A stretch of 32,533 nt of DNA from a virus (IMGVR_UViG_3300009146_000010:1-32533); one strand, 5' to 3'; positions 3,884 through 19,307 are shown, counted from the stretch's first letter. Translations and numbers: made by a program. The notes: generated by a model from the sequence alone, not told the origin.

Positions 3884-5101
3884 CTACGGATTGGCCTCTG
3901 CAAAAATCCCCGGTGTCGACCCCGAAGCGGCATTCAGCAGTGCCGCGGAGTTTGTTGTTAGGCCACTGGCAACCTGCGCAACTACCGTAGTTCGGTCAAT
4001 AAACGCAGTAGCAGACAGGCTAGTGCATGCAAACTGCGAACCACCGACCTGTACCGTAAACGCACTAGGAGAACTCACAGTAATCGTCGGCGTCACTGCC
4101 TTCACGGCTTTGTATGACCACTGGCCTGTCGCTCCTGTCGTACCCCACACGGCGAACCCTGACAAAAGTGTTTGTGTACTTGTTGCACCTGACGATTCGT
4201 AATACCGGAGACACCGCGCCAGATCGTCGGCCGGGTGCAGCGGCGCGTAGTCGGCCGGCACGCTGCCCACCACCAGCATGGCGTTGTCGAGGTACGCCGT
4301 GCAGGAAGCCAGGCACTGAACTTTGACCTGGACATACGTCGCGTCAATGGGAACAGTTGCCGTGACGGACAGCGTCTGGAAGCCGCCGCTGACCACATTG
4401 AACGGCGACAACACGGTAGTACCACCAGCACCGTCTGTTGTAATCGAGGCGCGAACCGCGTTGCCCGTGGTACACAGAACACGCACGCTTAGCGTAATTG
4501 TCGCCTGGCGTAACGAGCACTCAGTGGACTTTATTATTTGATAAATGCTTGCATTGACTCCAGTCGAACGTGTGTAAGTCGCCTTGAGGCTATAGAGCGA
4601 GTGTTTGTCAGCCCCACCGTCTTTCGACACGCTCAGCGTATCGCCGCCGTCGTAGTACATCGACCACATGTCGGCCGTAGTGCCACTAATAAACGGTCCA
4701 TTGCCGCGCTGCCAGATCTCGAAGCCGCCGTTGGTGAGCAGGTTGGCCCTGGCCGTATCCGTCCCGAGCTTGACGTTGGTGACCGACGCATCGGCCAGGT
4801 CCGCCGTGGCAATCGTGCCGTCGGCGATCTTGGCAGACGTAATCGACCCGTCTGGGATTCCGCCCGCGATCGTCGTGTAGCGCGCGTCGCCTTCGGTCTG
4901 CGTCAGATACACCGAGTGCGGATCGGCCGCAGCGATATGCGTTGCCAGACTCATCGTGCCGCCAGCCAGCAGCTCCGTTTCGATTGCCATCACGGCATCG
5001 GCGAGCTGGTTATGCAATCCCGGATGCAGATCGACCTCGAGCGTGCCGTTGGCGACGTCATTCTGAATATCGTCAGGACTGCTCGGAAAATTACTGGGCA
5101 T
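3884..5101 (-). CDS. Tail fibre / receptor-binding protein
   Basis: 405 aa. The N-terminal part carries PHSVYLTQTEGDARYTT, a motif common in phage fibre stalks, followed by short repeats (DGSITSAKIADGTIATADL, residues about 82-102) typical of trimeric beta-structured shafts. From about residue 118 (NLLTNGGFEIWQRG) begins a jelly-roll, carbohydrate-binding-like domain, then a C-terminal beta-rich tip. These are established features of siphovirus fibres that bind surface polysaccharide. Several Cys residues occur in the distal half. Which sugar it binds is unknown. Confidence 0.82.
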   Translation of the reverse strand: MPSNFPSSPDDIQNDVANGTLEVDLHPGLHNQLADAVMAIETELLAGGTMSLATHIAAADPHSVYLTQTEGDARYTTIAGGIPDGSITSAKIADGTIATADLADASVTNVKLGTDTARANLLTNGGFEIWQRGNGPFISGTTADMWSMYYDGGDTLSVSKDGGADKHSLYSLKATYTRSTGVNASIYQIIKSTECSLRQATITLSVRVLCTTGNAVRASITTDGAGGTTVLSPFNVVSGGFQTLSVTATVPIDATYVQVKVQCLASCTAYLDNAMLVVGSVPADYAPLHPADDLARCLRYYESSGATSTQTLLSGFAVWGTTGATGQWSYKAVKAVTPTITVSSPSAFTVQVGGSQFACTSLSATAFIDRTTVVAQVASGLTTNSAALLNAASGSTPGIFAEANP

Positions 5102-6034: not shown

Positions 6035-8083
6035 CTACGCTGGTGGCGGCGTATACGGCTGCTCGAGCCCGCCGCCGCTCAAGCTATACGTCGAGGACCA
6101 GCCGTCATCCACTTCCCAGGCGTAGCCCTGCACCCACATCTTTTCACCGATCGCCATTCGGTCGAGCGTATCCAGCAGACACGTCAACCCAGGCCCGTGC
6201 TCATCGTCACGCCAGGATCGGACATCGGCCGTGACGAATTCCTTGTTGACATCGTTCAGGATCGCCTCGGCAATGTCCTGGGCATCGATACCGCCATAGC
6301 CGAGTGGCGCGCCATCCTCATCGTTGCCGTCCTCGATCAGGTCGCTGCTGAATGCCTCAGGATGCCTGGTCGCCGCGGTGGCGCCATCACCCTGAAAATC
6401 ATTCGACCCATAGGCGGCGCCCAGCACGGGGCCGAGTCCATCACCATAGTCATGGCCGCGGACGATCGCGGCATTCCTGGTCTGCTCGGTGTTCCTCGAG
6501 CCCGTCGAGCCTTCGACGATATCCTCATCGGCCAGTGTGAAGCTGGTGGTCGTGCTCGAGGGATGGCCGATCATCTGCACCCGGCGGATCGTGCCATTGT
6601 GCTGCTGGTAGGTACGGTAGAGCGTGGCCTGGTCGAGCTGCTGGACGTACTGCCAGGCCGAGACGCCGGCGTGCCAGTCGAATGCCTCAGGCGCCTCGGT
6701 GCCGAGCGTGACACCGGTGCCCTCGATATTGGCGCCGACATACGAGATGCCTGGCACGAAGCCGAGCGCCCACGCCACCAGGGCCTGATCGGTGGCGCCA
6801 GTGGGAAACTCTTCGTCGAAGACCAGATCGGTGTCAGGCGCCCACTCGTTGGCATAGGCCAACGTCCCCATCGCCACCATCTCGATGCCTTTCGGAAATG
6901 CCGATGGTTTGAAACGGCGCACCTTCCCCACGAAGCGCGTGACGTTCGTCCCAGCACCAGCGACGACCTCGAGGTCATCCTCCTCGTTCCCCGTCTCAGG
7001 CTTCGCCGTCACAAACACGCTGCACGTCGGCCACCCGCTATCAGCCGCGACCTGACCGCGGGCGCTCAGCACATCGGCGAGCTCCATACCGGCGAACGTG
7101 ATCGTGGACGAGACACTGCGCACCACAATCCCAGCAGGCGGTGGCGCGCTCTCAGTCGTGGCCGTCGCGGTGGATGAGTAACTGCCTGAACCGGCCGCGT
7201 TGGTGGCCCGGACGCGATACGAATACGACGTACCCGCCAGGAGGCCCGTATCACTGAACGTCGTCGTGCTGGGCGTGCCAATTTCACTGAATGAGCTGCA
7301 CCCTGCACCCTCGCACCGCTCGACGCGATAGCCGGTGATCCCGCTCCCCGTCGCGGCCGTCCAGGTCAGATCGATCTGCGAGGCTGAGACCGCTGTTGCA
7401 ACCAGGCTGGTCGGTGCAGAGGGGAGATCGACGACGCCAGGCCGGCCGTTATCGGTCGTGCCGGCCGTGTCGTTGATGGCGATCTCGTCATAACCGAGGT
7501 AACTGCCGGTTGGGCTGCTAATACCCGAGCTGAGATCGCCGAGTTGCACGTGGCGTATGTTGAGCGTCGATGTTTGAGCAACGTCGCCCGAATAGTTGAT
7601 GACGCGCGTACCGTCGAGCCAGACCTCGCCTGTGCCAGTCGACGCCGTCAGAATCTGTTCACGCCACTCGATAACGTGCCACGTATCTTCGGCGAAGCTC
7701 GCGCTCGCGGTTCCCAATAGGGCAACCCAGAAGCCACGGCGGAGCGCCACTAACCCGGTGCCGGTGTGATAACTCAGGACGACCTGGACCGCACCAGCGT
7801 TGTCCTGCATCTGGGCGATGGTGACCTCTTCACTGGCCGGGGTGATGTGCGCAAAAAATGCGAACCTGACCCAGATCTCGGTCACCGCGGTCGCGAGCGT
7901 AAATGTCTTGTACGTCGCACCCCAGGTGCCAGCCCCGGTGGCGGCCGGTTTCATGCAATAGCTGCCCGCGTATGGGGTGGGCGTGCTCGAGACAACGGTC
8001 AGCGTTGCGTTTCCGCCAATCACCGACGTGCCTGCTTCATTGATGTTGCCGGTCTCCCAGCCGCACGTCAGAAGCCTGGTCAT
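6035..8083 (-). CDS. Tail hub protein with lectin and FN3 domains
   Basis: 682 aa from ATG 8083. Three regions are visible. Residues about 1-205 look like a concanavalin/LamG sandwich (HVIEWREQIL, then GEVWLDGTRV). Residues 221-310 are a fibronectin type III domain (PSAPTSLVATAVSASQIDLT, later YSYRVRATNAAGSGSYS). From about 315 onward it resembles tail-tip hub proteins (MELADVLSARGQ, FVGKVRRFKP). FN3 and lectin domains on phage tails are known to bind surface sugars. Having adhesion modules N-terminal to the hub part is less common. An upstream extension to 8149 is possible but would overlap the previous gene. Confidence 0.75.
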   Translation of the reverse strand: MTRLLTCGWETGNINEAGTSVIGGNATLTVVSSTPTPYAGSYCMKPAATGAGTWGATYKTFTLATAVTEIWVRFAFFAHITPASEEVTIAQMQDNAGAVQVVLSYHTGTGLVALRRGFWVALLGTASASFAEDTWHVIEWREQILTASTGTGEVWLDGTRVINYSGDVAQTSTLNIRHVQLGDLSSGISSPTGSYLGYDEIAINDTAGTTDNGRPGVVDLPSAPTSLVATAVSASQIDLTWTAATGSGITGYRVERCEGAGCSSFSEIGTPSTTTFSDTGLLAGTSYSYRVRATNAAGSGSYSSTATATTESAPPPAGIVVRSVSSTITFAGMELADVLSARGQVAADSGWPTCSVFVTAKPETGNEEDDLEVVAGAGTNVTRFVGKVRRFKPSAFPKGIEMVAMGTLAYANEWAPDTDLVFDEEFPTGATDQALVAWALGFVPGISYVGANIEGTGVTLGTEAPEAFDWHAGVSAWQYVQQLDQATLYRTYQQHNGTIRRVQMIGHPSSTTTSFTLADEDIVEGSTGSRNTEQTRNAAIVRGHDYGDGLGPVLGAAYGSNDFQGDGATAATRHPEAFSSDLIEDGNDEDGAPLGYGGIDAQDIAEAILNDVNKEFVTADVRSWRDDEHGPGLTCLLDTLDRMAIGEKMWVQGYAWEVDDGWSSTYSLSGGGLEQPYTPPPA

Positions 8084-8093
8084 GTGTAAATCG

Positions 8094-8447
8094 TTACGCC
8101 CATACCGCCGTCCGAATGAACGTTGCCGTCGCCTGCCGCCTGGCACCACCAGGCAAGTAGGTCGTGGAGCGCAGCTCGACCAGGATTGCCGATGTCGTTC
8201 CGAGGCTCTCGATAATCAGCGTGCCTACGCCAGCTCCGCGGGCGATGTCGATGACGACGCCTGTTCCGCCGAGTGGCTGATGAATATGCCAGCGCAAGGT
8301 CATCAACGCCACGGCATCGTTCCACTCGGCCAGGCTATTGAAGTGGGCGGTGACCGTAATGCGCTCGGGCTCGGCGGCATCCTGCGATGAGCCGCGGATC
8401 ACGGCCAGGAAGGTGGTCGAAGTGCCGTTGATAGAGAACGTAGCCAC
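8094..8447 (-). CDS. Small tail protein after tape measure
   Basis: 117 aa, starting at GTG 8447, which overlaps the tape-measure stop by one base (TAGTG), with AGGTG about nine bases upstream. The fold looks all-beta with alternating hydrophobics (LIIESLGTTSAILVELRST). Siphoviruses often have a distal-tail or tube-like protein immediately downstream of the tape measure. This one is shorter than most Dit proteins, so the exact role is open. Confidence 0.62.
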   Translation of the reverse strand: MATFSINGTSTTFLAVIRGSSQDAAEPERITVTAHFNSLAEWNDAVALMTLRWHIHQPLGGTGVVIDIARGAGVGTLIIESLGTTSAILVELRSTTYLPGGARRQATATFIRTAVWA

Positions 8448-10831: not shown

Positions 10832-11227
10832 CTATGCCTTCGCGCTCGCCGTGGCTACGCCGTTGGTCGGCGAGAAACCGTCTGAGCCGAACTCGGACAC
10901 TTTTGGGATTGCCGCTGCCGACCTGACCGCTTCGATGTAGCGCACGAACAGGAACGTCACCACGCCTACCCTGAGATCGAGCTCGTGCTCACTCTTGAGA
11001 TCTTTCGGCAATGGGTGCGGCTGGCCGTCTTCGTCGGTCAGGTTCCACTCGAGCACCACCTGACCGAACGCCGACCACCAGACCCCGTCTTCGAAGCCGA
11101 CCAGCGCGTCGTAGACCGAGCTGCGCGGGTCGGTCCTGACGACGGCGTACCAGCCCGGATAGCCGATGTCGTCGAACTCGATCCGCGCCGTCTTGACCGG
11201 CTGAGCGATCAGAGCTGGTTGACCCAT
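10832..11227 (-). CDS. Tail assembly chaperone-like protein
   Basis: 131 aa. It lies directly after the major tail protein and before the tape measure, the conserved place of the lambda gpG-type chaperone that coats the tape measure during tail assembly. The sequence IEFDDIGYPGWYAVVRTDPR and a C-terminal helix VTFLFVRYIEAVRSAA fit that group in general character. ATG 11227 overlaps the last codons of the tail protein gene by 19 bp. The assignment is mainly positional. Confidence 0.6.
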   Translation of the reverse strand: MGQPALIAQPVKTARIEFDDIGYPGWYAVVRTDPRSSVYDALVGFEDGVWWSAFGQVVLEWNLTDEDGQPHPLPKDLKSEHELDLRVGVVTFLFVRYIEAVRSAAAIPKVSEFGSDGFSPTNGVATASAKA

Positions 11228-11610
11228 GTGCCCTTCGCGGTGAAGTTCGCCGTGGTGCCAACTGCCTGATCGACGGCGCTCCGAATGGACATGTCCACCC
11301 AGGCCGGGCCACCGATGTACTTGCTGGGCGCCTCGCGCGCGGGATACAGGTACAGGTTGGTGCCATCCTGCGATGCCGATGCCTGGCGCAGCGTCGTGTC
11401 GTCCGACGCCCAGAAGCCCTCGAGCGTGCCGCTATAGGCCGGGAAGCCGAGCACCGACGTTCGGTTGGATGCCTGAAACTCGGTGGTGTCGATCGTCTCC
11501 TGGGTGCCGTCCATCGTGAAGGCGCGCATACCGCCCACGCTAATCGCGGCCGTTGTGCCGTTGATCGACATATAGACGACGGAATTTCGCCCTGCGTACT
11601 TGACAGCCAT
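11209..11610 (-). CDS. Major tail (tube) protein
   Basis: 133 aa from ATG 11610, with AAGGGAG about ten bases upstream. Beta-rich with MRAFTMDGTQETIDTTEFQA, the TMD-turn-TTEF pattern frequent in siphovirus tube proteins, and a C-terminal NFTAKGTWVNQL. Its place before chaperone and tape-measure genes supports tube identity. A longer open frame upstream to 12078 is antisense-like noise within the glycosyltransferase gene. Many exposed Ser and Thr residues make it a conceivable glycosylation target. Confidence 0.82.
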   Translation of the reverse strand: MAVKYAGRNSVVYMSINGTTAAISVGGMRAFTMDGTQETIDTTEFQASNRTSVLGFPAYSGTLEGFWASDDTTLRQASASQDGTNLYLYPAREAPSKYIGGPAWVDMSIRSAVDQAVGTTANFTAKGTWVNQL

Positions 11611-11615
11611 TACCC

Positions 11616-12692
11616 CTAAGCTCCCTTCGCGATGGGTTGCCGCTCTGAGGTCTGGGGAAATGCCTCGAGGTCGGCCAGGATGGTGCTCGCCCGCGCGGCG
11701 AACGTGTGCGGCAAGATGCGGCGGTGCGCCGAAAGCGCGCACGCCAGTCGTTCCGAGTCGTGCGACAGGTAATCGCGGACGAGCAGCTCGAGCCCGACCG
11801 CATCCGGAAACGTCGGCACCGCATAGCCGAAGGTTTCCATGACCTCGGCGCGGCGATCGCTGATTTGAAACACGCCACACGCCGCCAGCTCGTAGGCCCG
11901 CGGGTTCAGACTCTCGGCATGCTCGATCCGCGGCGCGTTGTGGCCCCAGCCCATCGATTGGCGGTGCAGGTTGAGCCCGATCTTCGCGCGGCGATACAGA
12001 CCGATCGCGTCCTGGTTCGGCACCTCGCGCCCGCGGACGTACTTTCGCAGTCCGTGCCGAGGCGCCAGCAGTGACCACGATCCGTACAGGCCCAGGTCGA
12101 TGCCCTTCCAGTTCACCGCCTCGAGCAATTCGATCCGCTCGGCGAATCCCGTGCCGACGAAGACCACGTCATGCGCCGGCGTGTCCAGCGGCACCTCGGC
12201 CAGTGGTCGATGCGACTCCGGATCGTACGCATGACGAAGATAGCCAGCGTTCGAGAAGCGACGGACCGACGAGCGCTCGGTCGTCCAGCACCAATCGACC
12301 AGCTCGGCCATACGCACCTGGGCGTCGTCGTCATACGGCGACTCGGTGAAGAGCACGGCGGTCTTGATCCCTGCCCGCCTGAGCATGACGAGCACGTCGG
12401 GATGGAAAAACATGCCAGAGATCACCAGCACCCAGTCGACCTGGAAGCGGAGCGCCATTTCGAGCGCCTCGATGCTGGCGCGATAGATCACGTCAGGAAA
12501 CGATGGCGCGTCTTCAGGTCGTCGGCCACGCTCGCGCCAGAGCATGCGTAGCCAGCGCTGAGCGATACCAATCCGCCGATCGAGCAGGTAGAGCTTGGTC
12601 TCGACGCCTGCCTGCTGGAGGGCGCGGTAATAGCCGTTTTCAACATCCTTGATGCTGAAGCTCGCACCCGCGCCGACCAGCAAGATGCGCAC
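11616..12692 (-). CDS. CgeB-like glycosyltransferase
   Basis: 358 aa, GT-B architecture. An N-terminal Rossmann-like start MRILLVGAGASFSIKD is followed by HPDVLVMLRRAGIKTAVLFTE around 97-117 and VVFVGTGFAERIELLEAV at 176-193. A C-terminal nucleotide-sugar half carries NPRAYELAACGVFQIS at 263-278, the hallmark of the CgeB/YkvP-like glycosyltransferase family. It would transfer a sugar from a nucleotide donor. GTG 12692 overlaps the stop of the tiny gene before it by one base. It sits directly upstream of the major tail gene, so a virion or surface target is likely. Acceptor unknown. Confidence 0.8.
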   Translation of the reverse strand: MRILLVGAGASFSIKDVENGYYRALQQAGVETKLYLLDRRIGIAQRWLRMLWRERGRRPEDAPSFPDVIYRASIEALEMALRFQVDWVLVISGMFFHPDVLVMLRRAGIKTAVLFTESPYDDDAQVRMAELVDWCWTTERSSVRRFSNAGYLRHAYDPESHRPLAEVPLDTPAHDVVFVGTGFAERIELLEAVNWKGIDLGLYGSWSLLAPRHGLRKYVRGREVPNQDAIGLYRRAKIGLNLHRQSMGWGHNAPRIEHAESLNPRAYELAACGVFQISDRRAEVMETFGYAVPTFPDAVGLELLVRDYLSHDSERLACALSAHRRILPHTFAARASTILADLEAFPQTSERQPIAKGA

Positions 12693-12847
12693 TATCGGCC
12701 TGAGACCCTCGAGCTCGGGTCGGTGAGCTGCGGACCCGACACTCTGACGGACGGGTCGGTCGGCGCCTGACCCGACCCCGGTGCCGGCTTCGGTTTGGCC
12801 CCCGAGCCAGTATTCAATTCGCCTTTCGGCGTGGGTGCGGATGGCAT
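12692..12847 (-). CDS. Tiny Pro/Ser/Gly-rich protein with tandem repeat
   Basis: 51 aa. ATG 12847 has a near-perfect AAAGGAGG ribosome site, so it is strongly translated despite its size. Low-complexity, disordered sequence (GSGAKPKPAPGSGQAPTDPS) ends in two copies of TDPS(V/S)RVSG. No fold is expected. It is set between a methyltransferase and a glycosyltransferase, and the Ser/Thr/Pro-rich repeats look like acceptor sites for O-linked sugar; that is inference. A linker peptide or decoration protein is equally possible. Confidence 0.65.
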   Translation of the reverse strand: MPSAPTPKGELNTGSGAKPKPAPGSGQAPTDPSVRVSGPQLTDPSSRVSGR

Positions 12848-12860
12848 ATGGCTTCCTCCT

Positions 12861-13487
12861 TTACTTGATAGCCTCGCAGAGATAGCCCGTATGGCCGTGG
12901 ACGTCATGCACAAATCCCCAGCCCTCGAAGCGGCGCACGAGGTCTAGCAAGTGCTCGGCCTCGGCGGTCCACTGCGTCGGCTCGACCGTCACCGTGCTGA
13001 AATGGCGCAACAGGTGACGCCAGCCCTGGTCGGTGAAGCGCCAGTAATCGGGATAGTTGACCGTCCCATGCCAGGGCCAGAGAAACGGACTGGTCACCAG
13101 CAGCAGCCCACCCGTCTTGAGCACGCGGCGCATCTCGTCGACGGCGATGAACGGGTCGGCGCAGTGCTCGAGCACCTCGGTACACACGATCGCGTCCAGC
13201 TCTTCGTCGTCGAACGGAAGCGCGGTCACGTCGCCGACTCGATCGCTGTGGGTATCCGCCGTATGGCCGAGCGTGAAATAGCCATTGCCGAGCCAACGCC
13301 GCGGGTTCTGCACCCCGATGTCCATCACCTTGCCCTGCAGGCGTGCGCGGTTGGCAAAGATCCAGTGCTCGAGCTGCAGGCGGTGGTAGTCGGGCACGAA
13401 ATCGTGCAGGCCGGCCGTGCGCTCGCGCCAGGCGTGCAGGCCGGCATGGTCCTCGCCGCTGGCGGCCAGGATCAGGAAGTCAGCCAC
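12861..13487 (-). CDS. SAM-dependent methyltransferase
   Basis: 208 aa, class I (Methyltransf_11 type). VMDIG at 54-58 is a degenerate motif I, GDVTALPF at 85-92, the acidic CTEVLEH at 102-108, and LKTGGLLLVTSPF at 123-135. The usual DxGxGxG is replaced by DIGVQNPRRWLG, as in some sugar or small-molecule methyltransferases. No DNA-methylase DPPY/NPPY or TRD is present, so it is unlikely to modify DNA. Between two glycosyltransferases it probably methylates a glycan. GTG start, overlapping the previous gene by 8 bp. Confidence 0.82.
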   Translation of the reverse strand: MADFLILAASGEDHAGLHAWRERTAGLHDFVPDYHRLQLEHWIFANRARLQGKVMDIGVQNPRRWLGNGYFTLGHTADTHSDRVGDVTALPFDDEELDAIVCTEVLEHCADPFIAVDEMRRVLKTGGLLLVTSPFLWPWHGTVNYPDYWRFTDQGWRHLLRHFSTVTVEPTQWTAEAEHLLDLVRRFEGWGFVHDVHGHTGYLCEAIK

Positions 13488-14106
13488 CAGTAACCCACCA
13501 CAGATGGCCCGGTCGCGGCCGAGAGATGCTGATCACTTCGTCGCACCAGGCGACATCACCCTTTGCCAACTCGTTGGCCTTGACCGCGGCGTCGTAGTCG
13601 CCTTCGTAGCGCATACCCCACTCGACGGTCCTGGCGATCCAGCGCGGGAACACCAGACAGTCGGCGTCGATGTTGCCGAGCGCAAGCAGCGGCACGCGCC
13701 AGATCGTGTCGCCCCAGTAGGCGAGGAATCGGAAGAACAGCGGCCGCGGCTTATCCAGCGCGCCGATGCACTGTTTGATGGCGGCAAGCGACCCTTGCGT
13801 TGCGATGTTGTCGTCCTGCGAAAACCACACGTACGGCGCCTTCGCCATGCGCGCGCCGAACGTCCGCTGCGGCTGGCCGACACAGTGCAGGCCGGCGTCG
13901 TGCTCGAGCCATCGACAATTCCCGAAGACGACGCGGGTCCGCGCCCGCTCGAGTTCGGGCGTCATGCCCCCGAAGGTATCGCCGACGACCAGGACCTCGA
14001 CGCCGCGCGATTCGCGCTGGGCGTAGATCGACGCGAGCGTACGCTCGAGCGTCTCGCGCCCGACTGTTGGGATGACCACACTGAGCCAGGGACTCACGCC
14101 ATGCAT
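13480..14106 (-). CDS. Family 2 (GT-A) glycosyltransferase
   Basis: 208 aa. LSVVIPTVGRETLERTLASI at 8-27 is the classic GT2 nucleotide-binding start. YVWFSQDDN at 92-100 supplies the DxD-like acidic pair (D98, D99) that binds metal and UDP- or GDP-sugar. The C-terminal part is short, with WCDEVISISRPRPGHLWW, so this is a compact soluble enzyme. ATG 14106 overlaps the tail-terminator gene by 13 bp; a GTG at 14097 is an alternative. Part of the modification cassette with the methyltransferase downstream. Confidence 0.82.
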   Translation of the reverse strand: MHGVSPWLSVVIPTVGRETLERTLASIYAQRESRGVEVLVVGDTFGGMTPELERARTRVVFGNCRWLEHDAGLHCVGQPQRTFGARMAKAPYVWFSQDDNIATQGSLAAIKQCIGALDKPRPLFFRFLAYWGDTIWRVPLLALGNIDADCLVFPRWIARTVEWGMRYEGDYDAAVKANELAKGDVAWCDEVISISRPRPGHLWWVTGG

Positions 14107-14498
14107 TCCACGTCGATGCGGCAGCCGAGCACCTTGGCATCACCGATCTCGACGATCTGGGCATAGTCGGACCACCCGGTCACATGCGCGCTCTGGGCAA
14201 TGCCACCGAGTGACGGATCGGCCTCGATTGCCGCTTCGATGCTCTTCGGCCCATCCACCGACAGGTACTCGTCGATCGACGACTGGGCGCGAGTGAAGTC
14301 CTGCGAATTGACGTACACCCAGATGGCGAACCGATAGGTCGCGTCCTGGTCCCACGACAGCGGCACGGTCACCGAGCGCGGAATGACCGCGGCGGACGGT
14401 GTCTGCGGATTGGCCGGCATGGTGGCGTACGGCTGCAAGCCGCTGATGGTGGCCAGCCGATCCTTGAGCCCCTTCCGCAGATCGCCCAGCCTCGTCAC
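14094..14498 (-). CDS. Tail terminator/completion protein
   Basis: 134 aa from GTG 14498, which overlaps the stop of the gp10-like gene (CTGTGACG). The N-terminus TRLGDLRKGLKDRLATI and the middle VTVPLSWDQDATYRFAIWV fit the alpha/beta tail-completion proteins of siphoviruses, which cap the tube and join it to the head. Position between the neck protein and the tail module agrees. Assignment rests on gene order and general composition. Confidence 0.65.
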   Translation of the reverse strand: MTRLGDLRKGLKDRLATISGLQPYATMPANPQTPSAAVIPRSVTVPLSWDQDATYRFAIWVYVNSQDFTRAQSSIDEYLSVDGPKSIEAAIEADPSLGGIAQSAHVTGWSDYAQIVEIGDAKVLGCRIDVECMA

Positions 14499-14971
14499 AG
14501 GGGACGACCCAGGAAGGTGACGAGCCGAAAGCCGATCCGCGCGAACATCCGCCGCAGTGCCGGCAGATTCCGCTGCAGCGAGGGCTCGACGAACGGCTGC
14601 GCGCGGGTACCACGGCGAGCGATGGCGCGCGCCACCACGAAGGGGTTCACGCCGTGCCGTCGTGCCCAGCCGGCAATCGCCTCGATCGGCGGCGCCTTGC
14701 CAGGCCGGCGCCCACGCTCCACCCACAATCCATACCGCACGGTCGGCCCGACGCGGCCCGTGATCGTGGTCAGACTCCTGGCGTCGAGCTCGTGGGTGAT
14801 CGAGCTCATCAAGCGGCGCGTATCCTGCGCCACATTCCTGCGCTGGTCGGCCTCGAGCAGGATGAGGCCCGCCGTCATGGTCTGGCGGATCTCCTGCCGT
14901 TGCCGCTCGTCGTACTGGCTGAGGCGCCGGCCGAACTCAGGAAAGCCCTGCAGCTCGACGTTGACGGCCAT
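14495..14971 (-). CDS. HK97 gp10-like neck/tail protein
   Basis: 158 aa. A long N-terminal helix (RRLSQYDERQRQEIRQTMTA) is followed by VRYGLWVERGRRPGKAPP, the GxxPGxxP-type turn characteristic of the HK97 gp10 family, and a C-terminal helix. These proteins join head and tail. ATG 14971 directly follows the TAG of the connector gene with no bases between. Confidence 0.82.
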   Translation of the reverse strand: MAVNVELQGFPEFGRRLSQYDERQRQEIRQTMTAGLILLEADQRRNVAQDTRRLMSSITHELDARSLTTITGRVGPTVRYGLWVERGRRPGKAPPIEAIAGWARRHGVNPFVVARAIARRGTRAQPFVEPSLQRNLPALRRMFARIGFRLVTFLGRPL

Positions 14972-15676
14972 CTACACCAGCACCCAGGACGAGGCGCTCG
15001 AGCGGTTATATGACTCCAGCAGCGCCTTGATATCGGGATCTTCGTTTGAGACGCGATCGAAGCTGCCCATATCTGGGACGATGGCCATGCCGGTCGGCGT
15101 CTCGTGCCGCTTCCACCAGCGGCTGGCCAGAATCAGACAGGCAATATGGATGTCGGGTGGTGGGAGGCCATCGACGCTATAGCCGAAGTCGCCGATGATC
15201 TGCACCAGCTCGCCCGGCGTGAAGGCATGCGAGCTGTTCGGCCAGATCCTGATCTGCTGATAGCGCGTGCTCGGACGGCCCGTCTCGTCCATCGCCGGCC
15301 ACAACTCGTACTCGGACGCCTCGAGCGTGGTGGCATAGGTGCGATCGCCGCTGGTATCGAGCTTGATGCTGCTGATCGCAATCAGATCGACGACGTCGAG
15401 ATAGTTGGGATCGCTCGCGTAGTAGAGCTTGGTGACTTCGTTCTCGAACAGGAAGTGACGGCCGCATTGCTGGTCGATCCAGCGGGTCGCCGCCGCGAGC
15501 ACGGCCGTCAGGTGGTCATCGGTCAGACCCGTGTCTTCGGCGGGCAGCTCGATCCACGTCTTGAATTCCTCGAGCGAGGCGTAGAACAGGCCGCTGTACG
15601 CCCCGCCGCTGGTCGGCACCTCAACCAGCGCGGTGCCGCCGAACGTCCCTTCGGTTACGTCCGCTGTGGTGGCCAT
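14972..15676 (-). CDS. Head-tail connector (gp6-like) protein
   Basis: 234 aa. YASLEEFKTWIELP, then TDDHLTAVLAAATRWIDQQC, the small helical bundle of the gp6-type adaptor family that forms the dodecameric ring under the portal. The C-terminal helix IHIACLILASRWWKR and a disordered end follow. The start at ATG 15676 overlaps the previous stop as TGATG. Longer than many gp6 homologues by a Gly/Thr-rich N-terminus and a beta-rich insertion (about 95-150). Confidence 0.75.
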   Translation of the reverse strand: MATTADVTEGTFGGTALVEVPTSGGAYSGLFYASLEEFKTWIELPAEDTGLTDDHLTAVLAAATRWIDQQCGRHFLFENEVTKLYYASDPNYLDVVDLIAISSIKLDTSGDRTYATTLEASEYELWPAMDETGRPSTRYQQIRIWPNSSHAFTPGELVQIIGDFGYSVDGLPPPDIHIACLILASRWWKRHETPTGMAIVPDMGSFDRVSNEDPDIKALLESYNRSSASSWVLV

Positions 15677-15882
15677 CAGTGGTTCGGCTCGAGGGCCGGC
15701 GCCTCATACGCCAACGTGCCCCGCCGGCCTACGCGGTAGAGCCGACCCTCGATCTTCAGTGGCCGCCGTGTAGGGAAGCGGACCACCGTGCCGGCCGAGT
15801 GGCTTGTCACGGCGCCATCGGCCCAGGTGATACGCACACCACCTCGACCGACGCGGTACGCGTCCGTCACTCGGCCAGACAT
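15676..15882 (-). CDS. Small head-region protein
   Basis: 68 aa, ATG 15882, overlapping the previous stop (TAATG). Short beta strands rich in Arg, Gly and Val (YRVGRGGVRITWADGAVTSH) suggest an SH3-like barrel. No specific family is recognised. Between capsid and connector genes, a decoration or stabilising role is possible. Confidence 0.55.
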   Translation of the reverse strand: MSGRVTDAYRVGRGGVRITWADGAVTSHSAGTVVRFPTRRPLKIEGRLYRVGRRGTLAYEAPALEPNH

Positions 15883-15989
15883 TATGGCTTCGGCCCGTCC
15901 GGTGCGTCGTCGCCCTCGTCGTCGGGCTCGGGCGGCGGCCCCGGTGGTGGCTGCGGTGGATCGGGTTGCGGAGGTGTGCCGAAGGTCAT
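15882..15989 (-). CDS. Tiny Pro/Asp-rich peptide
   Basis: 35 aa from ATG 15989, with a clean AGGAG eight bases upstream. It is almost wholly Pro, Gln, Asp and Glu (PPQPDPPQPPPGPPPEPDDE). It directly follows the capsid gene and is translationally coupled to the next. No fold is expected. With the 51-aa gene at 12692 it is the second very small disordered protein in the head/tail block. A linker, capsid-surface peptide or assembly factor are options. Confidence 0.6.
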   Translation of the reverse strand: MTFGTPPQPDPPQPPPGPPPEPDDEGDDAPDGPKP

Positions 15990-15991
15990 GC

Positions 15992-17359
15992 TTAGACTCC
16001 TGTCACGCGCGCGAACGCCGTGGGACGCCATACCACGAATGCCGCCCGCAGCTCGGCCAGAATGGTCTGCATGTTGCGGATGAACTGGTCGTTGATGAAC
16101 CCGACCCGGATCACCGCCTGCTCGCGATCGAAGAGCGAGCAGCCCATCGAAAAGTCGCCGACCAGGGTGGTGTTCTCGGTCATGGCTTCCGACTCGACGA
16201 CCGGCAAGCCCCACAACGTATTGGCGCCGACCATACTCGGCGGTCCCATCAGATACCCGCCGTAGGTGGCCGATGCGGCGTTTTCACGCGCCAGTCTGAC
16301 GGCTTCCCAGTCGTTCGGGTGCATGACGATCGCTGTCGGGCGCGCCTTGCCGTTCACGCGCACCATGGTGCGAGCTCGGAAGATGGCGTCGAGCACGGTG
16401 TCAGCACCGAGCGCGCGGGTCTGAATGCCCGAGTTCAGGATGCCCGTCAGGTTCTCGCCGACGCCGTTGCCACTGATGATCTGCGTTTCCAGCGTGAGCG
16501 TGAGGCCGAGCAGCAGGCGGGTGTTGATGATGCCGCGGATCTGCGGCGCATCGCTGAGCGTCTTGTTTGTCACGGGCACCCAGTGCGCGATTGTGCGCAC
16601 GGGGCTCGTCTGGGTACTGAACGTGAGCGTTGACTCGGGCTTTGTACCCGTCGTGCCCGTGGTTGCGGTCGCCTCGGCCACCGGCGCGGCCTGGTTATCG
16701 AAGACTTCCTCGCGCACGTACTCGATCGTGTCCGAGTCGGTACTGAGCCGTGGCACCAGGTCGAGCACGTTGATCTCGCGCTGCAGGATGCTGAGCACGC
16801 CCTGCTGCACGTCGTTCTGCACCAGCGAGCCGGCGACGCCCGTACCCGAATAGATCAACGCCTTGTGCTGCAGCGCCTTCTGCCACGACACCAGGCTGGT
16901 GTTGGCCGACATGATGACGCTGAACTCGTTGCGGTGCAGCTCGGAATTGAAGCTGCCCGCCGCGCGCATTTTGGTGTACTCATTCGAGCGCACGAACTGA
17001 TCGCCAGGGCTGAGCTGCTGACCCTGCAGCGGATCGCCCGACGGCTGACGGTGGCCGTTGCTCGGGCGCGAGTATTCCTCGAGACCGGCATTGACGCGGT
17101 GCTTGCGTTGCAGCGCGTCCTCGAGCTTCTTTTCGTGATCCATCAGCATGTCGACGGTCATCAGGTGCCGTTTGACCTGGTGCTCGTCCTCGGGATCGCT
17201 GATGATGCCCTCGTAGCGGCGCTCGATGTCGGCTGAGCGGTCGTACTGGTCTTTGATGTTGGCCTTGACCTCGGCCAGGACCATGCTGGTGATCTGCTCG
17301 GGCTTGAAGAGCGGCTCGAGCTTGTAGGCCGAGTCGTTCGTCTTTGCGGGTGCGCTCAT
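15992..17359 (-). CDS. Major capsid protein, HK97 fold
   Basis: 455 aa. Residues about 1-130 are a helical delta/scaffold-like domain (KANIKDQYDRSADIERRYEG), probably removed by the protease encoded next door. The mature part has the HK97 signatures: RTIAHWVPVTNKTLSDAPQ, IISGNGVGENLTGILN, AIVMHPNDWEAVRLA and a final VVWRPTAFARV. ATG 17359 overlaps the protease stop (ATGA), with GGAG nearby. The order protease-capsid is the standard one. Likely the most abundant virion protein. Confidence 0.93.
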   Translation of the reverse strand: MSAPAKTNDSAYKLEPLFKPEQITSMVLAEVKANIKDQYDRSADIERRYEGIISDPEDEHQVKRHLMTVDMLMDHEKKLEDALQRKHRVNAGLEEYSRPSNGHRQPSGDPLQGQQLSPGDQFVRSNEYTKMRAAGSFNSELHRNEFSVIMSANTSLVSWQKALQHKALIYSGTGVAGSLVQNDVQQGVLSILQREINVLDLVPRLSTDSDTIEYVREEVFDNQAAPVAEATATTGTTGTKPESTLTFSTQTSPVRTIAHWVPVTNKTLSDAPQIRGIINTRLLLGLTLTLETQIISGNGVGENLTGILNSGIQTRALGADTVLDAIFRARTMVRVNGKARPTAIVMHPNDWEAVRLARENAASATYGGYLMGPPSMVGANTLWGLPVVESEAMTENTTLVGDFSMGCSLFDREQAVIRVGFINDQFIRNMQTILAELRAAFVVWRPTAFARVTGV

Positions 17360-17970
17360 GCGAACTCCAACAGGCCCAGGCGCACCAGCTTTTTACGGGC
17401 GAGGGCCATCTTCAATTCGATGATGCTCGGGCCACGACGCTCGGTCGGCTCGGGCATATCCACGGCCACACTCGCCACGAGCTCGGGCTCGGCGGGTGTG
17501 ACAGATCGCGCTTTCACCAGGGTGATCAGCGCCTCCTCGTTCATCGGGATCGACACGACCGAAATCTCGAGGAGGTCGACGGCCTTCAACTGGCGGATAC
17601 CGCTGTCAGAAAACTCCTGGTCCTCGGGGATATAGCCGATCGACATGCTATCGATGGCGCCGTCCTTCAGGAGCTGGTAGGCGTCATGACCACGCGCGGT
17701 CTTGGAGATCTTGAACTCGCCGAAGAGGCCGCGGTCGTCCTCGCGCAGGCCCAGCACGCGACCGAGCGGCTCGGCGATGTCGTGCTGCCACAACAATTTG
17801 GGGCGCCGGCGTCCCAGGCTGGCCTTGAAGGCGCCAGGCATGACGACATCGCCGCCCTCGTCGATATTGAGGAACGTCGAGGCGTAGCCGCTGAACGACC
17901 AGCCGTCGTCGCGCGCCTTCAGTTCCTGGAGGTCAAACCCGACTGACTTGTAACTGAGCGCGAGTGGCAC
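17356..17970 (-). CDS. HK97-type prohead maturation protease
   Basis: 204 aa, GTG 17970. Herpesvirus-assemblin-like fold: GYASTFLNIDEGGDVVMPGA at 29-48, LLWQHD with catalytic His63, IDSMSIGY with catalytic Ser110, and DLLEISVVSIPMNEEA. It cuts the capsid precursor's N-terminal scaffold domain. Adjacent to and coupled with the capsid gene. Confidence 0.92.
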   Translation of the reverse strand: MPLALSYKSVGFDLQELKARDDGWSFSGYASTFLNIDEGGDVVMPGAFKASLGRRRPKLLWQHDIAEPLGRVLGLREDDRGLFGEFKISKTARGHDAYQLLKDGAIDSMSIGYIPEDQEFSDSGIRQLKAVDLLEISVVSIPMNEEALITLVKARSVTPAEPELVASVAVDMPEPTERRGPSIIELKMALARKKLVRLGLLEFA

Positions 17971-18009
17971 GGCGAAGCCCCGTGCCCACGGGCAGCTCGA
18001 TGGCCAAGC

Positions 18010-18198
18010 TCAGGGGCGATAGGGGCTCGAGGGCCCTCGACGGATACCGACGCGTGTAGTTTGCACGGTTGCGGCTTTCTGTTCAACGGTCACGCTACGG
18101 ATCTTGTTGCCGCATGGCCGGCAGAGGATCTGGACGAGACCGTTGCCCTCGGCCTTGAAGAGCACCTTCCCGCAATTCGGGCAGCGATAGTCTTTCAT
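18010..18198 (-). CDS. Com-like zinc-finger protein
   Basis: 62 aa from ATG 18198, overlapping the previous stop (ATGA). YRCPNCGKVLFKAEGNGLVQ followed by LCRPCGNK gives a four-Cys zinc ribbon very like Mu Com, an RNA-binding protein that activates translation of the Mu mom gene. Here there is no mom-like gene; the neighbour upstream is a glycosyltransferase. Com-like ribbons are also common without known roles in other phages. Translation control or head assembly are both possible. Confidence 0.72.
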   Translation of the reverse strand: MKDYRCPNCGKVLFKAEGNGLVQILCRPCGNKIRSVTVEQKAATVQTTRVGIRRGPSSPYRP

Positions 18199-19307
18199 GC
18201 CGCGAGCGATCGCCTCGCCTTGAACTCGTCGATGATCTGCGCCCAGGCGCGCGGCCACGCGAGTACGTTGCGCTCGAGACTGTGCTCGCGTGCAATGCGC
18301 CGACGCTGGGCTCGATACAACCTGCGGCGCAGCTCGCGGGATTCGATCAGGCGCGCGAGCGCGGCTTCCCATTCGCACGCGGTCTCGGCGATCAACGCAT
18401 CCTCGCCGTCACTGGACACGGCGCCGTACAGGGTTGGTGAGACCACGGCGGCGGCGCCGCCTAATGTGTATTCCCAGAGCTTGATCGGGGTCTTGCAGCG
18501 GTTGAAGTGTTTGTCGGCGACGCTGGCGCAGCCGATATCGATGTTGCGGAGCGCTCTGGGATACTCAGCCACAGAGAGCCACGGCACTCGGAGCACACGC
18601 TCTGGTGGGACCGCACCCACCAGTACGTCGGCCAGGTGTCCCTGGACGACAAAGCCAACGTGCGGATAGCGCTGGGCGAGGTTGCCCCACGCCTCGGCAA
18701 CGGGTTGTAGATCTTCGGGAAAACGCGAGCCACCCGCCCAGCCTACCGTCAGCCGTGGGGTTTTCTCATCTCGTCGCCCAGCTCGAACCGCGCGACGAAA
18801 CCACGCCACATCGATTGCATTCGGGACCACCATGACGGGGATGTCGGGGTCGACGTACTGCCGAACGACGGCGGCCAGCTCGTGGGTGCTGACGGTGAGC
18901 CCGTCGCAGAGACGGATGGCGGCGATGCGGTCGCGCCGGTCCTGCTCGAGTTGCTCGAGCGACTTTTCTTGTTCCGTGGTGGCATGCTGGCGTGCTCCGA
19001 TCTGCGGCGTGAAGACGTCGTCGTCCACCTCGTAGATGACGGCCAGGCCGGCATTGTGCATGCTGCGCACCCAGCGCCGGGCAATGGCCTGGTCGCGTGC
19101 GTCCCACGAAAAGCGCGGGAGCACGATCGCCTCGAGCCGTGTCGCCGCCAGGTACGGCCACTCGGGCGTATCCATCTCGGGATCGTCCTTGTCACGGAAC
19201 CACGCGCCATAGCCCTGGCGTTGGAGCTCGGTATACGGCTGCCACACCCGCCACAGCACGCAGCCGCTCTCCTCGCCGGTGAGCGCCAGGACGCGCGGCC
19301 CGTTCAC
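18195..19307 (-). CDS. GT4-like (GT-B) glycosyltransferase
   Basis: 370 aa. The N-terminal half is alpha/beta with VIYEVDDDVF at 90-99 and CDGLTVSTHELAAVV at 134-148. VMVVPNAIDVAWF at 158-170 is the inter-domain motif, LTVGWAGGSRFPEDL at 186-200 begins the donor half, and KTPIKLWEYTLGGAAAVVS at 272-290 is the nucleotide-sugar motif typical of GT4 retaining enzymes. GTG 19307 overlaps the previous stop. Located between minor-head and protease genes, so it is made with the capsid. Its substrate is unknown; modification of virion proteins is the leading hypothesis. Confidence 0.84.
   Translation of the reverse strand: MNGPRVLALTGEESGCVLWRVWQPYTELQRQGYGAWFRDKDDPEMDTPEWPYLAATRLEAIVLPRFSWDARDQAIARRWVRSMHNAGLAVIYEVDDDVFTPQIGARQHATTEQEKSLEQLEQDRRDRIAAIRLCDGLTVSTHELAAVVRQYVDPDIPVMVVPNAIDVAWFRRAVRAGRRDEKTPRLTVGWAGGSRFPEDLQPVAEAWGNLAQRYPHVGFVVQGHLADVLVGAVPPERVLRVPWLSVAEYPRALRNIDIGCASVADKHFNRCKTPIKLWEYTLGGAAAVVSPTLYGAVSSDGEDALIAETACEWEAALARLIESRELRRRLYRAQRRRIAREHSLERNVLAWPRAWAQIIDEFKARRSLAA

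Follow-up and report, generated by a model that had tools for sequence, protein, structure and literature searches.

Why would a phage carry a set of sugar-modifying enzymes among the genes that build its head and tail, and which molecules would those enzymes modify? The question arises from IMGVR_UViG_3300009146_000010:1-32533, an IMG/VR record of 32.5 kb (32,533 nucleotides; this whole stretch is called the window below). Profile matches identify integrase, RecT, terminase, portal, protease, HK97-type capsid, head-tail adaptor, tail terminator, tube, tape-measure, and fiber genes, and by this gene content the window phage is a temperate siphophage. Three glycosyltransferases and one methyltransferase lie among the structural genes, which also include a MuF-like gene recognized by profile. 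A preliminary description of this DNA had read the four enzymes as a virion glycosylation and methylation cassette served by two tiny acceptor peptides. Our analysis of the window and of related loci suggests that the virion is the probable target, with the tail tube or a 51-residue peptide (P51) as the tail-side acceptor and the capsid as the head-side acceptor.

The tail-side genes, in the order of transcription, are:

14094..14498, minus strand: tail terminator, the upstream border of the tail-side slot (phrog_17840, 1.4e-17; start codon inferred)
13480..14106, minus strand: GT2, a short soluble glycosyltransferase of the GT-A family, 208 amino acids (PF00535, 1e-06, above the curated cut-off)
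12861..13487, minus strand: MTa, a class I S-adenosylmethionine (SAM) methyltransferase (Methyltransf_11, 2.6e-13, above the curated cut-off)
12692..12847, minus strand: P51, a candidate glycan carrier of 51 amino acids, rich in Pro, Ser, and Gly, with a twin TDPSxRVSG motif at its C terminus
11616..12692, minus strand: CgeB-like GT-B glycosyltransferase, 358 amino acids (PF13524, 4.2e-21, above the curated cut-off)
11209..11610, minus strand: major tail (tube) protein, 133 amino acids (phrog_1407)

Together with GT4, a head-side glycosyltransferase described below, the enzymes share a strand with the structural genes and are coupled to their neighbors by overlaps or gaps of 1–13 nt. The tail terminator overlaps GT2 by 13 nt and GT2 overlaps the methyltransferase by 8 nt; a 13-nt gap separates the methyltransferase from P51, whose stop codon overlaps the CgeB-like start by one base (TAGTG), and a further gap of 5 nt leads to the tube gene. 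The preliminary description was right about the positions of the four enzymes, the SAM methyltransferase included, and about their coupling to head and tail genes. Its count of three glycosyltransferases also stands, whereas its three different folds reduce to two, because the CgeB-like enzyme and GT4 both match PF13524, the CgeB-like model is GT-B, and GT2 belongs to a GT-A family. That AlphaFold model (predicted local distance difference test score, pLDDT, 81) matches MshA, PimA, and BshA; a model of the tube protein matches the tail tubes of monocin, R4C, and lambda.

On the tail side, evidence comes from the pairing of the CgeB-like gene with the tube gene. For the CgeB-like enzyme, an alignment-based pattern scan of IMG/VR returned 242 relatives, of which the 80 best were kept; after removal of duplicates, 66 loci had enough downstream DNA to be testable. 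The window's tube protein family follows the CgeB-like gene directly in 66/66 of these non-redundant loci, with identity to the window's tube protein dropping as low as 28%. The reverse search, starting from the tube protein, reached close relatives only and found the CgeB-like gene adjacent in 32/32 loci. More distant tube relatives occur in three isolate phages, none of which has an annotated glycosyltransferase before the tube gene: in two of them, Sinorhizobium phage phi3LM21 and Roseobacter phage CRP-811, the tube gene comes immediately after a gene for minor tail protein U, and in DSL-LC06 a single small hypothetical gene separates it from the terminator. Since the interval is free of the cassette in these distant relatives, the cassette looks like an insertion between the tail terminator and the tube gene.

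A second linkage is found on the head side, where GT4 lies upstream of the Com-like, protease, and capsid genes:

18195..19307, minus strand: GT4, a GT-B glycosyltransferase, 370 amino acids (PF13524, 8.8e-09, above the curated cut-off; phrog_7162)
18010..18198, minus strand: Com-like zinc-ribbon protein, 62 amino acids (phrog_13819 gpCom, 4.6e-05), sharing 4 nt with the end of GT4
17356..17970, minus strand: prohead serine protease (Peptidase_S78, 1.1e-33)
15992..17359, minus strand: HK97-type major capsid protein, candidate acceptor of GT4 (Phage_capsid, 3.6e-44)

GT4 is conserved among aligned relatives. Its relatives occupy 56 loci, of which 38 could be tested for downstream neighbors, and protease and/or capsid genes follow it in 34 of the 38. 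Because IMG/VR relatives link the CgeB-like gene with the tube gene in both search directions and GT4 with the protease and capsid genes, the virion reading is much stronger than the window alone would make it. The Com-like protein recurs in relatives between GT4 and the protease. Com of phage Mu is a translation activator of a modification gene, and the Com-like protein may possibly regulate the glycosyltransferase or the protease.

What the tail-side enzymes might make is best seen from the slot itself, defined as the open reading frames between the tail terminator and the CgeB-like gene and scanned by family in 44 loci. The slot contains methyltransferases (24), GT2 (16), DegT/DnrJ/EryC1/StrS aminotransferases (7), GNAT acetyltransferases (6), and radical SAM proteins (2), with radical SAM and SPASM domains among its families. 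Control reading frames 3' of the tube gene, taken from most of the same loci, gave tape-measure families and one GT2, with no methyltransferase, aminotransferase, or acetyltransferase. The DegT family acts in amino sugar synthesis on activated nucleotides, and for this reason the slot products are most simply glycans; the presence of such nucleotide-sugar enzymes, DegT aminotransferases and GNATs, in the same slot of relatives also adds to the good genomic support for virion modification. Seventeen viral relatives of GT2 occupy the same genomic place, and the acidic metal-binding motif QDDN is present in the window's GT2 and in its relatives. For MTa, sequence relatives in the PDB include a D-glucose O-methyltransferase (6uv6, 3.2e-05) alongside non-sugar enzymes; MTa is a likely candidate for a glycan O-methyltransferase, and other families take its place in relatives.

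The candidate cap enzymes of the slot do not occur together. In 38 complete slots the cap is a methyltransferase of type d (18), type b (8), or type a, the window's own (3), or a DegT enzyme (4); exactly one cap type is present in 33 of the 38 and two in none. About 7 overlaps were expected and 0 observed, and none of 200,000 shuffles was without overlap, a figure that serves as a guide and not as a probability since the loci are related. The slot thus appears to pair GT2 with one of four interchangeable modules, namely three methyltransferase families or a sugar aminotransferase with an acetyltransferase. At three loci (L009, L010, and L051), the CgeB-like enzyme is the sole recognized enzyme. 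The simplest reading of these gene sets would be that CgeB performs a core step, that GT2 usually adds to it, and that one exchangeable cap completes the product.

Relatives add further genes to this slot. The richest cassette is a 6.9-kb slot (L049, 1104-7991) holding GT2, two DegT genes, GT2_4, a GNAT acetyltransferase, a jelly-roll-like gene, and P51. Between the methyltransferase and P51 or the CgeB-like gene, some relatives carry either collagen-like fiber genes or a protein with a CKHG motif whose fold, guessed from sequence, is jelly-roll-like (L003, 1226-3451; L012, 2580-3257; L017, 7367-8005; L006, 3-638), and in others a Cys-containing protein of 78 amino acids fills the same place. 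These products may decorate the virion and serve as alternative acceptors. Radical SAM-like proteins lie directly upstream of the CgeB-like and tube genes at two loci (L084, 1342-2400; L088, 3021-4097), where they could possibly introduce unusual sugar or peptide chemistry.

P51 deserves separate consideration. A strong ribosome site accompanies its reading frame, and its homologs are conserved; a scan with a two-sequence alignment found three loci, and a scan with a 16-sequence alignment found 21, in all of which (21/21, found by motif) P51 lies directly upstream of the CgeB-like gene. The twin motif TDPSxRVSG...TDPSxRVS is invariant across the 16 aligned homologs, including the Thr/Ser of both repeats. 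Across 18 sequences, the C-terminal block of 20 codons shows 1357 synonymous against 97 nonsynonymous pairwise codon differences (93% synonymous), a pattern by which P51 is a true gene under selection on its amino acids. A role as acceptor is plausible. P51 could be a dedicated acceptor, a bivalent disordered peptide glycosylated by CgeB and GT2 on its twin repeats. On the virion it would then substitute for a C-terminal tail of the tube, such tails being absent from the tube and capsid proteins; we consider this dedicated role rather unlikely. Besides the invariant residues and the fixed position, it is favored by the finding that complete slots contain P51 only alongside GT2 (14/28 with GT2 versus 0/10 without; p = 0.006). 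Against it, most CgeB loci, the three minimal ones among them, have no recognized P51, so that the CgeB-like enzyme needs another acceptor there, and a conserved linear motif could equally bind a virion protein or an enzyme. The other account, which we hold to be a real possibility while stopping short of calling it probable, leaves P51 unmodified: it would be a binding partner (an enzyme adaptor, a minor decoration, or a chaperone peptide), or its translation would couple the expression of CgeB. The one-base TAGTG overlap fits such coupling, and in relatives P51 follows small Cys-containing or jelly-roll-like genes that resemble virion or tail parts; a pure coupling leader, however, would not keep its amino acids with such an excess of synonymous change.

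The second peptide of the preliminary description lies directly after the capsid gene:

15882..15989, minus strand: acidic Pro-rich peptide of 35 amino acids, with one Thr and no Ser

Several relatives have Pro/Glu/Asp-rich (PEPEP-type) counterparts directly 3' of the capsid gene (L013, L016, L021, L022, L028, and L031). A lone Thr and the lack of Ser make it an unlikely O-glycan acceptor, and given its acidic, Pro-rich composition we rejected it as a candidate. The idea of two Pro/Ser-rich acceptor peptides therefore survives for P51, in composition and as a plausible role, and fails for the 35-residue peptide, which is Pro-rich only.

From gene content and order, we infer acceptors, sugars, linkages, order of steps, and benefit as follows. 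The late operon of this temperate siphophage would hold two virion-glycosylation cassettes. The capsid would most likely be the target of the head-side member, the GT-B enzyme at 18195. Its tail-side counterpart, the CgeB-like GT-B enzyme, would add the first sugar to the tail tube, the most likely acceptor of its glycan, or to P51 made alongside; GT2 would elongate the glycan, and the methyltransferase would cap it by O-methylation. In relatives a different methyltransferase family would provide the cap, or else a sugar aminotransferase together with an acetyltransferase, which would supply an N-acylated amino sugar. Head and tail would thereby gain a sugar coat specific to the lineage, acting either as a shield or as a layer that aids adsorption and stability. 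A more specific and, in our judgment, unlikely version has the glycan on the separate 51-residue carrier with its two TDPSxRVSG sequons, a CgeB-type enzyme locked to the tube gene, and one exchangeable cap (methyl or N-acyl amino sugar) per phage, which together would make an antigen-like system of tail variation.

Several observations weigh against virion glycosylation. The counts of linkage and of cap exclusivity come from related loci and are not independent trials. At 4 of the 38 GT4 loci no protease or capsid gene was recognized nearby; in these same four, GT4 still comes after portal and/or MuF genes. Unlike the known glycan-bearing cases, a Ser/Thr-rich C-terminal extension is absent from the tube protein (64 sequences) and from the capsid protein (12 homologs), and the substrate of MTa is not fixed by its sequence, given its non-sugar relatives. 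The glycans could sit elsewhere than on the C-terminal tails of tube and capsid; the tube protein has several conserved Ser/Thr positions, none of them prominent as a sequon.

Two other targets have to be weighed against the virion. The enzymes might act on the host surface, changing an O-antigen or wall polymer. Such a change could, for instance, shut out superinfecting phages; prophage-encoded TarP is a precedent, with wall teichoic acid as its target. The phage is temperate, with an integrase, sugar aminotransferases are frequent in surface polysaccharide pathways, and GT2 finds a single sequence match in the PDB, a weak one (E = 0.055) to 6h1j, a probable beta-1,3-N-acetylglucosaminyltransferase that we take to be TarP. 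We nevertheless judge this explanation improbable: the genes lie within the late structural operon rather than in a lysogeny region, the recognized slot genes include no flippase, lipid-carrier enzyme, or membrane protein, and none of the four window enzymes has a membrane-like segment (top 19-residue hydropathy 1.51, soluble by this measure). Nor would action on the host surface explain why one enzyme is paired so strictly with the tube gene and another sits on the capsid side. Still less credible, to the point of being very improbable, is hypermodification of phage DNA bases with sugars against restriction. Phage glycosyltransferases acting on DNA are known, as passages of PMC12838424 and of PMC12619734 (the latter citing Pyle 2024) indicate, and a Com-like zinc ribbon does lie beside GT4; the enzymes, however, are linked with tube and capsid genes and not with replication genes, and no base-hydroxylating enzyme was recognized among the scanned genes, which leave part of the window unscanned.

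How widely such cassettes occur has to be judged mainly from uncultivated phages. No near-identical phage record was found, the window's CgeB-like and tube proteins have no tblastn match in 50,697 phage records, and a tblastn search of isolates with a distant CgeB gave only matches of 22% in an Acinetobacter phage record. Matches of GT4 in isolate phages reach only 23-27% and include no mycobacteriophage. Neither the CgeB-like enzyme nor GT4 matches the PDB by sequence, and 55 pattern matches of the CgeB-like enzyme in GTDB genomes yielded none confirmed. No isolate phage was found near the window phage, and a mycobacteriophage status is without support; a capsid search of genomes gave a single 29% match, in an Acidimicrobiia metagenome-assembled genome, too weak to name a host. 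Two observations concern other tail genes. The large tail protein at 6035-8149 (minus strand) matches major-tail, Hoc-like, and tail-fiber J profiles over residues ~231-343 and may possibly be an Ig-like carbohydrate-binding decoration. A homolog of the window's fiber gene (3884-5101) follows the capsid gene in L028 (3495-5597) rather than lying at the tail end, and fiber genes are for this reason seemingly mobile between sites in these phages.

The tail-tube-linked cassette recurs widely among uncultivated phages, with 242 CgeB relatives in IMG/VR by pattern, and lacks isolates. This distribution suggests that glycosylated tails, with exchangeable sugar caps, are commoner than isolates show. 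The TDPSxRVSG twin repeat is a concrete candidate for a sequon of protein glycosylation in phages, and the order of these genes is a genomic marker by which such phages can be found.

Among known systems, TarP resembles GT2 in being a GT2-type enzyme carried by a phage; it is a wall-teichoic-acid N-acetylglucosamine transferase, matched only weakly and in another setting. CgeA and CgeB of Bacillus subtilis form a spore-crust pair. By description, that pair is similar in setting a small-protein gene beside a CgeB-type glycosyltransferase at a surface layer; it differs in that P51 is a disordered-looking peptide of 51 residues from a phage late operon. A Rhodococcus phage paper likewise infers virion glycosylation from a glycosyltransferase and a methyltransferase (PMC13313380). 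In mycobacteriophages such as Che8, Corndog, and Myrna, phage glycosyltransferases are reported to place glycans on the C-termini of capsid and tube proteins (Freeman et al. 2023, as cited in PMC12363180 and PMC12619734). The window, too, encodes glycosyltransferases among its virion structural genes; there, glycosylated capsid and tail-tube subunits have been described, whereas the tube and capsid proteins of the window phage have no Ser/Thr-rich tails. The closest precedent is Corndog, a cluster O mycobacteriophage, for which passages of PMC4351075 (2015) describe an O-methyltransferase (gp35) and three glycosyltransferases (gp36, gp37, and gp38) between portal and protease, and a proposal by its authors that methyl and glycan groups modify the capsid. 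A multi-enzyme set with a methyl cap is therefore not new, contrary to what the preliminary description had supposed, and its portal-protease position is that of GT4 in the window. All four Corndog enzymes are head-side, however, and those passages describe no tube-paired CgeB-like enzyme and no P51. We found no description, in the open-access library searched, of a fixed CgeB-tube pair, of exchangeable caps, or of P51, and it is the pairing of CgeB with the tail tube, the swappable caps, and the conserved 51-residue partner peptide that appear new in comparison with these systems.

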